Assembly: GCA_015233495.1 (NCBI GenBank) | Contig: JADFXQ010000016.1 | Span: 1-36,519, forward strand | Source of the DNA: Candidatus Omnitrophota bacterium | GTDB lineage: Bacteria; Omnitrophota; Gorgyraeia; Zapsychrales; Zapsychraceae | Direction of reading: 5' to 3' | Length of the DNA: 36,519 nt | Shown: positions 16,780 through 23,477 of the stretch, piece after piece | Layout of the letters: each line of letters opens with the position of its first letter | Position numbering within the stretch: position 1 is the first letter of the stretch | Notes under the pieces: model-generated | The model's input: only the letters and a program-made list of their open reading frames with translations | What the model was told of the DNA's origin: nothing | Databases searched by the model: none | Position numbers and translations under genes: made by a program

Positions 16780-18816
16780 TTACGCTAACCGAGTCTGGCA
16801 AACTTGAAGAACCGAGTAAACTGAAACGTGGTTTAAATCTGCCGGGATGAAATTTTTCGCTTTTTTGAAATCGCTGTGCGCGTCCGGCGCCGGGCTGATT
16901 ACGCTGGAATAGGCGTGAAACGGCCGCCAGCGTTCGGGGTTAATTCCAGGCTGATTGCGGGTGAATATGGAAACCACTGGCGTGCCTATGGCATCGGCAA
17001 TATGCACCGGGCCGGAATCATTGGAAACCAGCATACGGCAGTGTTTTAAAACAGCAGTCAATTGCCGTAGATTGGTTTGTCCGGTCAAATCCAAAATCCG
17101 CGGCCATTTTTGACCAAACCGCTCCAGGATATACGCGGCGGAAGCCGAAGCCCGGCCGGATCCGACAATCAGAAAATCCGCGCCGGTTTCCCGGGCTAAA
17201 CCATCGATCAATTTGACAAAATTCTCAATCGGCCAGCATTTGGCGGGATCGCTGGCATCGGGGTGGATCGCGATCAGCCTGTCTGGGGTCAAATGTTTCT
17301 GCCGCAGAATAGCCTGCGCCCATTCTTCCCCATCGGACTGAATCGGCACGAAGGTTTCCGGTTCACTGATCTGCAAACCCAAATGCCGCAAAATATCCAA
17401 ACAATATTCTGTCTCGTGTTTCTTACCCAGATAACGTTCATCCTTGACCGGGTCATTTAAGAGGAAGCCCCATTTGCGATCACGAAACCCAACGCGGCGC
17501 GGGATGCCGGCCAAACATCCCAAGGCATTGGTGCGGCGTTTGGTGTGATAAACCAGGGCCAAGTCGAATTTCCGGGAGCGAATTTGCCGAATCAATTTAA
17601 TGAAACCGAAAAATCCTTGGTGTTCGTTTTTACGATCATCCACCATGACCGCGTCGATATCGGGATTTCCGGCAACCAAGTCTTTTGTCTGGGCGGACAA
17701 CAACGCGGTGATTTTCGCGCCCGGGAAATTCTCGCGTAAAATTTTGAACACGGGCGTAGTCAACACCACATCGCCGATGCGGTCGGTGCGGATGATAAGG
17801 ATATTTTTATAAGCGTTACTGCCTGCAACATAGTTTTGTGTCGGAGCGCCCACTAGGGGCGCCCCGACAAAGGAGAATACATCTTCTACCTTGATCGCTT
17901 CCATGCAGGAATGCTTCTCCTCCAGCTTCGCGTCAGCGCACTTGCGGCAATTTTCATTGCGTCGGATCGCCGCTCCGTCCTTGCCCCAAGGGCCGTATTG
18001 ATCCGGTGATTTTGGGCCGAACAATCCGATCAGCGGAATGTTAAAATAGCTAGCGATATGCAAGGGGCCGCTGTCATTCCCGACGACAAATTTGGCATTT
18101 TGAATAACGGCCGCCAATTGCCGCAGAGTGGTTTGGCCGCATAAATTGACATAGGTCGCTTTTTTTAACGACTGACACGCGGCATCCACAACCGCTTTAT
18201 CCGTTGATTCTCCGATAAAAACCGTTTTCACGCCGGTAGTTTCATAAATCCGCCCGGCCAAGAAACCGAAATTTTTCGCCGGCCATTGTTTTTCCGCGCT
18301 GGCCGCACCCGGAGCCATCACGCAATATTGTTCCGCCGCGTTCAACAATCCCCAGAGGAGAATTGCAATAAAATTTTGATCCTCTTCGGATATCCAGAGG
18401 GCAACCCTGGGCGGTGTTCCGTTGGAAAACGGATGAACCTTTCGCAAGCGGGCCAAATGTTTATCCAGCATATGGCCGGAGAATTTCCGGCCAAACACCA
18501 CCGGTGTACGCCGGCGGCAGGCCAGCAGCAACGGAATCGCGGTACAGCGCAGATCAACCACTAGGTCATAAACATCCCGCCGCAAGCCCATGATCCATTT
18601 CAAGGTTTGCGGCCCGGTCCAATGTTTATCAAACACCATCACGTATCGAAAATACGGATTGCCCTCCAGCAAAGGATAGGCTTTCGGCCCGACCACAACA
18701 TCCAAATCCGCAGACGGAAAATCCCGTTTCAAAATATCAATGACCGGCAAAGTCAAGACCACATCACCGATATTGGACAAGGAAATCACCAAAATTTTTT
18801 TAATTGTCTCTGACAT
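16780..18816 (-). CDS. Tandem GT9 (heptosyltransferase-like) fusion protein
   Basis: A 678-residue protein with two complete glycosyltransferase family 9 units. Unit 1 (about 1-315) starts KKILVISLSNIGDVVLTLPV and holds NDSGPLHIASYFNIPLIGLFGP plus a Cys-rich tail (ENCRKCADAKLEEKHSC). Unit 2 (about 335-678) starts KNILIIRTDRIGDVVLTTPV and holds SNDSGPVHIADAIGTPVVSIF. GT9 enzymes transfer heptose from ADP-heptose to LPS core, so this protein may add two sugars. The linker VGAPLVGAPT (about 317-326) is encoded by an almost perfect palindrome at 17839-17869. The ATG at 18816 has only a weak ribosome site but a good promoter upstream. Acceptors and sugar identity are not predictable. Confidence 0.93.
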   Translation of the reverse strand: MSETIKKILVISLSNIGDVVLTLPVIDILKRDFPSADLDVVVGPKAYPLLEGNPYFRYVMVFDKHWTGPQTLKWIMGLRRDVYDLVVDLRCTAIPLLLACRRRTPVVFGRKFSGHMLDKHLARLRKVHPFSNGTPPRVALWISEEDQNFIAILLWGLLNAAEQYCVMAPGAASAEKQWPAKNFGFLAGRIYETTGVKTVFIGESTDKAVVDAACQSLKKATYVNLCGQTTLRQLAAVIQNAKFVVGNDSGPLHIASYFNIPLIGLFGPKSPDQYGPWGKDGAAIRRNENCRKCADAKLEEKHSCMEAIKVEDVFSFVGAPLVGAPTQNYVAGSNAYKNILIIRTDRIGDVVLTTPVFKILRENFPGAKITALLSAQTKDLVAGNPDIDAVMVDDRKNEHQGFFGFIKLIRQIRSRKFDLALVYHTKRRTNALGCLAGIPRRVGFRDRKWGFLLNDPVKDERYLGKKHETEYCLDILRHLGLQISEPETFVPIQSDGEEWAQAILRQKHLTPDRLIAIHPDASDPAKCWPIENFVKLIDGLARETGADFLIVGSGRASASAAYILERFGQKWPRILDLTGQTNLRQLTAVLKHCRMLVSNDSGPVHIADAIGTPVVSIFTRNQPGINPERWRPFHAYSSVISPAPDAHSDFKKAKNFIPADLNHVSVYSVLQVCQTRLA
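17839..17869. repeat. 31-base palindrome forming the GT9-GT9 linker
   Basis: A hairpin-forming palindrome with a 13-position stem (12 pairs, one mismatch at 17845/17863) and the five-base loop ACTAG, GC-rich. Read in frame on the minus strand it encodes VGAPLVGAPT. It sits exactly between the two GT9 units of the surrounding gene. It resembles a dispersed REP-like palindrome that happens to be open in this frame. Confidence 0.85.
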
Positions 18817-21356: not shown

Positions 21357-23477
21357 TTACTCTGCCTTGTCGACTAAGAGCGACAAAATTTCTTTCAAGA
21401 CTTCTTCCGGAGTTATCGCGGCTAAACACGCCCGCGTATGAATCCGACAATGCGCATTATAACACGGAGCGCATTTTAAATGTTTATCTAAAATCTTTAG
21501 ATTACACCCCGGTGGAACATGCCTTCGGGAATCGGTTGGGCCGAATAAAGCTATACAAGGAGTCCGCAGTGCCGCGGCGATATGCAAAGGGGCGGAATCC
21601 GGCGTCACAAACACATTGCAGCGTTTGATCAAAGCCGCCAATTGCATGACGTCGGTTTTTCCGGTCAAATTCGCGGGTTTCGCCCGCGTGATCTGCAAAA
21701 GCTGAAAAGCGCGCAGTTTATCTTTTTCTGTGCCGGTGATCACGACCCGGATATTTTTCGCGGATAAAAGATCACAAAGCCGGGCTATTGATTCAATCGG
21801 CCAATTTTTGGTCTCCCATTTTTCCGAAGCCGCCACATTGATCCCTACGACACGTCGACAATTGCCCAGCCATTCCGCGTCTAACAAATCCTCAATATAA
21901 CGCTGGTCTTTCGCGGAAGGCCACAATTCCAATTCTTCCTGTTCCGACGGCGAAATCCCCATCTTTTTCAAAATTTCAAATTGATGCAAAACCGCGGGCA
22001 AGGGTGTCGGGTTTTTTTTCAAGCCATGGTTCAATAAAAATCCCCATTTTCCATTGTCATACCCATAACGCTGCTGGGACAAGGTTAAAAAAGCCAACAA
22101 ATGGGTGCTCCGGTTATTTTGAAAATCAATGACTTGATCAAAACGCAGATGGCGCAAATACCGAGCCAGCCGCAAAAATGCCGGCAAACCTTTGTCTTTA
22201 TAAGAACGGTCATAGACAATCAATTCATCCACATACGGACAATTCTGCAAAATAGGACGCGCTTCTTTTCCTACCAGACAATAGATTTTCGCCTGCGGAT
22301 AGTGCCGACGAATCAACCGCAAAGACGCGGTGATCAAAACCACATCTCCCAAAGAACTGATTTTGATCACTAAAAGGTTAAGCGCATCTAAAAGCTCCTG
22401 ATAAACCGCCAAAGTCCGCTTTGCCATATGCTCAATCGTGTATTGTTCCCGAATTTTCTTCTGGGCCGCCTGCGTCAGTTGCCGTCCTAAAGCCCGGTCA
22501 TGATAAAGACGGAGCACGGCTTTCGCGATCGCGTCGGAGTCTTTCGACGGCACCAAAAGGCCGGTTTTGTCAGCCTCGATAATATCCACAACTCCGCCGA
22601 CATTAGTCGCTACCACCGGCACTCCCGCGGCTTGGGCTTCAATAATGACCCGGCCAAATGATTCCGGGGTTACCGAAGCAAAAACCAAGACGTCGGTTTT
22701 GCCTAATAGCTCCGGAATATCGGCACGACTGCCTAAAAATTCCACGGCCGGGTTTAGACCCAATTGCCGGGCCAGAACCTCAAGTTCCCGCCTATATGAT
22801 TGTTTGTCCGCCGGCGCGTCCCCCACGATCCAAACCTTCAAATACGGCATCTGCCGGATAACCTTAGCCATCGCGCGGATAAAATATATGTGCCCTTTCA
22901 GAGGCGTAATCCGGCCAATAATCGTGACCACAAAATCTTTTTGCGTTTTTTCTTCGCGGCGAACCCGCTCTTGTGCCACAGCGGCAAACCTTTCCACATC
23001 CACACTGCGGGGAATTTTCCTTATGCCATGCGCCGGAACTTTGTATTCCTGGACCATATAACGGCCAATCGCCTCGCTGGGCACAATAACCAATTTCCCC
23101 CATCCCATAATTTGGCTGAACCAAGGCGTTTTATAATACCCGTGGCACGTCGTAATGAATTGGGCATTCGTGCCGCGGCAAGCGAAAAACGCGATCCAGG
23201 CTGGAACGCGGGACCGGGCGTGAACTATATCAATTTTCTCGCTCAAAATGATCTGCCGCACCCGCCGGATCATCGCCAATATAGTGAATAAAGATTTTTC
23301 ATGAACCGGCAGGGAAAAATGTTTCGACCCGTTCAATTCCAAATCCACAACTAAACGGCCGCCGTTCGAAATCACGACGGATTTATGCCCGTGTTGAGTT
23401 AAATATTTGGCGAAATCCACTGTGCCGGTTTCAACCCCGCCGACATTTAATTCTGGGAGTACCTGAAGAATGTTCAT
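21357..23477 (-). CDS. GT4-GT9 bifunctional glycosyltransferase fusion
   Basis: A 706-residue protein. Residues 1-362 form a GT4 unit (LPELNVGGVETGTVDFAKYL, VVTIIGRITPLKGHIYFIRA, SVTPESFGRVIIEAQAAGVP, GGVVDIIEADKTGLLVP). Residues about 366-706 form a GT9 unit (NLLVIKISSLGDVVLITASL, GINVAASEKWETKNWP, VTPDSAPLHIAAALRTPCIA). In the GT9 unit the usual NDSGP motif reads PDSAP. The two meet without any linker at about residue 364. At that point an AGGAG seven bases before an out-of-frame ATG (22387) survives, as if two formerly separate genes were fused by a small frame change. It probably adds two consecutive core sugars. Confidence 0.9.
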   Translation of the reverse strand: MNILQVLPELNVGGVETGTVDFAKYLTQHGHKSVVISNGGRLVVDLELNGSKHFSLPVHEKSLFTILAMIRRVRQIILSEKIDIVHARSRVPAWIAFFACRGTNAQFITTCHGYYKTPWFSQIMGWGKLVIVPSEAIGRYMVQEYKVPAHGIRKIPRSVDVERFAAVAQERVRREEKTQKDFVVTIIGRITPLKGHIYFIRAMAKVIRQMPYLKVWIVGDAPADKQSYRRELEVLARQLGLNPAVEFLGSRADIPELLGKTDVLVFASVTPESFGRVIIEAQAAGVPVVATNVGGVVDIIEADKTGLLVPSKDSDAIAKAVLRLYHDRALGRQLTQAAQKKIREQYTIEHMAKRTLAVYQELLDALNLLVIKISSLGDVVLITASLRLIRRHYPQAKIYCLVGKEARPILQNCPYVDELIVYDRSYKDKGLPAFLRLARYLRHLRFDQVIDFQNNRSTHLLAFLTLSQQRYGYDNGKWGFLLNHGLKKNPTPLPAVLHQFEILKKMGISPSEQEELELWPSAKDQRYIEDLLDAEWLGNCRRVVGINVAASEKWETKNWPIESIARLCDLLSAKNIRVVITGTEKDKLRAFQLLQITRAKPANLTGKTDVMQLAALIKRCNVFVTPDSAPLHIAAALRTPCIALFGPTDSRRHVPPGCNLKILDKHLKCAPCYNAHCRIHTRACLAAITPEEVLKEILSLLVDKAE

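Follow-up and report, generated by a model that had tools for sequence, protein, structure and literature searches.

GTAG REPs are described as elements with a GTAG tag, a short stem and a 5-nt loop that also form inverted dimers (Di Nocera et al. 2013, PMC3733652); according to the same text, their ends supply TAG stop codons to flanking open reading frames (ORFs), and copies are also found inside ORFs. Rickettsia palindromic elements (RPEs; Ogata et al.), approximately 150 bp in length (PMC10969869), are in-frame palindromic inserts in conserved genes (PMC2229807, PMC10969869). In enterobacteria, a copy of RU-1 (ERIC) removes the normal stop codon of ECA3499 and extends the protein (Delihas 2007, PMC2759123). 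A search of the openly licensed literature found nothing on point for gene fusions made by REPs or for GT9-GT9 fusions. The usual explanations for gene fusion are a deletion or the loss of a stop codon, and overlapping or nearly touching genes are common in operons.

Here, we describe a GT9-GT9 fusion in a 36,519-nucleotide stretch of DNA (the window) from the genome of a Candidatus Omnitrophota bacterium (G000). The fused ORF (678 aa) occupies positions 16780–18816 of the minus strand and is matched twice, in two separate stretches, by Pfam Glyco_transf_9 (PF01075; 217 bits). Unit 1 (residues 1–316; 17869–18816, minus strand) contains the motifs SNIGDVVLTLP and GNDSGPLHIAS, while unit 2 (residues 336–678; 16780–17811, minus strand) starts with YKNILIIR and contains TDRIGDVVLTTP and SNDSGPVHIAD; GDVVLT and NDSGP.H are kept in both halves. 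The protein aligns with relatives over its full length at 43–47% identity. The GT9 units matched both WaaF and WaaC, and residue 3 of WaaF (1psw) aligned to residue 339 of the window protein, in agreement with the assigned start of unit 2. Judged from the sequence, the two halves are putative heptosyltransferases of GT9, each a complete unit, presumably translated as a single chain in which both are active. The same locus holds a further GT9, a GT4, a PfkB-family kinase and a GT4-GT9 fusion of 706 aa (21357–23477). Many relatives have open frames of ~700 aa that match the GT9 half of this second fusion.

The junction between the two units is occupied by a 31-bp REP-like palindrome (17839–17869, no strand assigned), TGTCGGAGCGCCC-ACTAG-GGGCGCCCCGACA, in which two 13-base arms, paired but for a single A/C mismatch, flank a 5-base loop. 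Its predicted DNA folding energy of -14.7 kcal/mol (z = -5.4) was equalled in none of 200 shuffles. In the minus-strand frame used by the 678-aa ORF, it encodes VGAPLVGAPT (residues 317–326). The first-pass annotation is thereby borne out as to the palindrome, its mismatch and loop, and its in-frame reading. That annotation also had the palindrome separating the units exactly; it does lie between the two GT9 units, but nine more residues, QNYVAGSNA (327–335; 17812–17838, minus strand), precede unit 2, and relatives start their second gene a few codons before YKN. The linker as a whole covers approximately residues 314–335 (~20 residues), of which the palindrome encodes ten, about half. An out-of-frame TAA on the minus strand at 17816–17818 stands in the same relative frame as in the sister genome G015 and may be a fossil of the gene 1 stop.

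The ATG of the second gene is lost in the window, and the QNYVAGSNA stretch contains no in-frame ATG, GTG or TTG. The sole nearby start-like codon, and the closest in frame 5' of unit 2, is a GTG inside the palindrome (V322; 17851–17853, minus strand), with a GGGG eight bases upstream. It is a speculative start, yet one on which unit 2 could be initiated separately, leaving no true fusion; alternatively, an assembly error could conceal a stop codon, given that strong hairpins are places where assemblies can err and that this genome, 91% complete, is assembled in 111 contigs. We consider it very improbable that there is no true fusion: the frame runs uninterrupted through all 678 codons, neither unit appears damaged, unit 2 has lost its usual start, and the arms of the palindrome match a repeat family, which makes a random error unlikely.

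This repeat family is dispersed throughout the G000 genome, even though a search for repeats across the window turned up no other instance of the palindrome. The 13-mer GTCGGGGCGCCCC, at up to one mismatch, has 63 genome-wide matches versus four for a reversed control pattern, and the 22-mer GGGGCGCCCCTNGTGGGCGCCC has 52 versus none. The proposal that the palindrome is a dispersed repeat was thereby upheld, and the window copy is not a unique site. At up to two mismatches, 45 copies were found in G000, as compared to 0–6 in other genomes of the family. The typical element, present on many contigs, is an inverted dimer of ~74 bp, GTAGGGGCGCCCCTYGTGGGCGCCCGTT...AACGGGCGCCCACRAGGGGCGCCCCTAC, in which two GTAG-tagged hairpins lie in opposite orientation (GTAG...CTAC), each arm consisting of an 8-bp stem and a 5-nt loop. 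The GTAG tag is found at the foot of the stem in most copies. The copy in the window is shorter, consisting of one hairpin closed by GTCG/CGAC with no dimer. Some copies contain a nested CTGCC...GGCAG palindrome (G000 C36:7467–7504, C11:30022–30113 and C76:5860–6014).

REPs are usually mobilised by a RAYT-type Y1 transposase. PF01797 (RAYT Y1 transposase) is present in 27 of 32 genomes searched in the family, but had no match in G000, at 91% completeness. The RAYT may be encoded in sequence absent from the assembly or may have been lost, or a mobiliser may act from another element. As PF01797 is unmatched, the element is here called GTAG-type REP-like, a label distinct from that of a proven RAYT-driven REP. 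There is good support for the derivation of the linker from this repeat.

Copies inside other ORFs are frequent. In G000, 21 of 59 repeat clusters fall within ORFs of at least 250 aa, a mechanical count that includes some ORFs truncated at the edge of the retrieved sequence and some clusters that belong together in a single element. Seven ORFs overlap an element only by its 4-base GTAG end, and the TAG of the element is therefore their stop codon. Elsewhere, the repeats would be translated in several frames, to give peptides such as VGAPLVGAR, RGAPRGRP, APTRGAPT and TGAHEGRPY; GTAG REPs and RPEs are described as behaving in this way, and the copies within open frames are in-frame intragenic insertions as in RPEs. 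Seven related ORFs carry the repeat at the same loop, between LKVMLEEDY and an EIIIPEI segment, and this loop is hypervariable in relatives and paralogues. The seven (L114, L107, L108, L109, L120, L102 and L101, on G000 contigs C14, C89, C93, C18, C90, C44 and C40) differ in the frame in which the repeat is read and belong to a paralogous family with 34 matches in G000; a scanned member had no Pfam match, and two REP matches of genome G003 also lie inside family members. On G000 contig C16 (L099, L111, L122), one stretch contains a 4499-codon frame, open at both ends, with three in-frame REP copies, and two further stretches are likewise open and hold more copies. G000 also illustrates the extent to which REPs can be accommodated within coding sequence.

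Among 81 genomes of the same order, a stop-free ORF across both GT9 units was found only in G000. Two adjacent but separate GT9 genes are present in 67 of the ~74 genomes tabulated, while three relatives (G010, G017 and G021) have the pair in frame with a single stop codon between, and the four remaining show no adjacent GT9 pair among the rows listed. All 20 junctions read in the family have a gene 1 stop and a gene 2 start, often as an ATGA overlap. No fused match was found in the 31 other genomes of the family or in six further families of the order. The first-pass annotation had asked whether relatives lacking the palindrome keep two genes. Those of the same order do, and none has such a linker, so neither a unique palindrome nor a linker shared with these relatives speaks against a repeat insertion.

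The effect of an insertion was modelled by placing the 31-mer within 45 bp 5' of the gene 1 stop in relatives. A stop-free, in-frame fusion resulted at 183 of 920 positions (20%); among the 12 junctions belonging to one frame class, 11 yielded such a fusion. In sister G015, the genes are so phased that joining them would take an insert whose length is 2 modulo 3, for which the bare 31-mer is insufficient. No genome from the genus of G000 was found, and the insertion may have come before or after the fusion. Ordinary stop loss could have fused the genes first, with the REP later entering a tolerant linker. The single stop between in-frame genes in G010, G017 and G021 is compatible with such a history, as are the many fused linkers in the class that are free of the window repeat and the gathering of G000 REPs in the tolerant loop of another family. 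Nonetheless, a stop loss that came first would require two events rather than one, and no palindrome-free fused relative is known among the 81 genomes of the order; we regard it as unlikely, though the most credible of the alternatives.

Inverted repeats with at least 12 bases per arm were detected at three of 69 junctions examined (G000, G019 and G142), and it therefore seems that the GT9-GT9 junction has received repeats more than once. In G019, the two GT9 genes (L080, contig C32) are unfused and have between them another palindromic insert, GGAATGCGAAGCATTCC, of which the G019 genome contains two exact copies. In G142, from another order, a fused GT9-GT9 protein (L205, contig C5) has a linker of GAATTCA repeats (NSEFRIQNSEQ) that is perhaps repeat-derived.

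The GT9-GT9 architecture itself is widespread and ordinary. In a sample of the phylum, ~50 genomes from other orders of the class proved to contain single GT9-GT9 ORFs, and the idea of an architecture found nowhere else in the phylum was dropped on this evidence. These fused proteins have the same domain order, mostly open frames of 650–730 aa and comparable unit spacing. The window repeat was absent from all 25 linkers read, which are 17–39 residues long and unrelated in sequence to the window linker. The broader suggestion, that new bifunctional LPS enzymes arise in this lineage through the insertion of repeats, was not supported: only one such fusion was found, and those of other orders are common and have linkers without the repeat.

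Trees of both GT9 units (FastTree and a quick tree) placed the window protein as sister to the split genes of G015 (SH-aLRT 97) and its own order, G000 included, apart from a fused outgroup of other orders (support 99). The distribution of the fusion on the tree amounts to two state changes and fits a secondary re-fusion in G000. It may instead be asked whether the fusion was ancestral for the class and survives in G000 alone, the gene having been split in all other members of the order and the repeat inserted later. Fused proteins are indeed common in other orders, and an AU test did not reject a grouping of G000 with them (p = 0.34). The best tree, however, nests G000 among split genes and beats the alternative grouping by lnL 13, no fused match exists in the 31 other genomes of the family or in the order's six further families, and retention in G000 would require several separate splits. 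An ancestral fusion retained in G000 alone seems very improbable. Since the AU test is not significant, the case for a re-fusion also rests on the position of G000 within a family and an order in which no other member gave a fused match.

We favor, as the probable though by no means certain history, that a short GTAG-type REP copy inserted at a tandem GT9 junction, rephased and joined the two frames, and that the start codon was lost, giving one chain. A short copy of the dispersed palindrome would have landed at the gene junction, near the stop codon of gene 1. The element is stop-free in the frame used and may be of a length not divisible by three; it could therefore push the gene 1 stop out of frame and join the two reading frames, and the start codon of the second gene would then be lost. 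Both enzymes would be read as one chain with a ~20-residue linker, ten residues of which are repeat-encoded. The out-of-frame TAA at 17816–17818 would fit such a rephasing, in which the inserted length may differ from 31. The sequence of these events is itself something we infer. The first-pass annotation held that an insertion would explain both the fusion and the odd linker: the repeat does supply linker residues, and its causal role, as opposed to landing in a pre-existing linker, is likely. More tentatively, and with greater doubt, a single REP insertion may have both made the putative bifunctional enzyme and supplied its linker, with repeats that recur at this junction perhaps marking a way in which fusions arise more generally. 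A non-autonomous repeat of a length not divisible by three would provide a one-step route, and one insertion position in five would fuse the genes in the relatives tested. The fusion in the window reveals no new enzyme architecture.

Compared with known systems, the repeat of G000 resembles the GTAG REPs in the GTAG tag of most copies, in its 8-bp stem and 5-nt loop, both within the ranges given in PMC3733652, and also in forming inverted dimers, donating TAG stops and occurring inside ORFs. It differs in that the window copy, a lone short-form hairpin, is closed by GTCG rather than GTAG, and in that no RAYT was found in the genome; the passages of that source consulted make no mention of a REP joining two whole genes. 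Like RPEs, the palindromic repeats of G000 are found in frame within ORFs, but they are shorter (31–74 bp), whereas RPEs come from Rickettsia and are described within single genes, not bridging two; the repeat works like an RPE without being classed as one. Like RU-1, the window repeat would have removed the stop codon at a gene end, although RU-1 adds only a tail and joins no second full-length enzyme. The GT9-GT9 proteins of other orders share the domain order and similar length of the window protein, but have different linkers and form a separate branch of the tree. What the window displays is ordinary REP- and RPE-like biology with one unusual gene-joining outcome.
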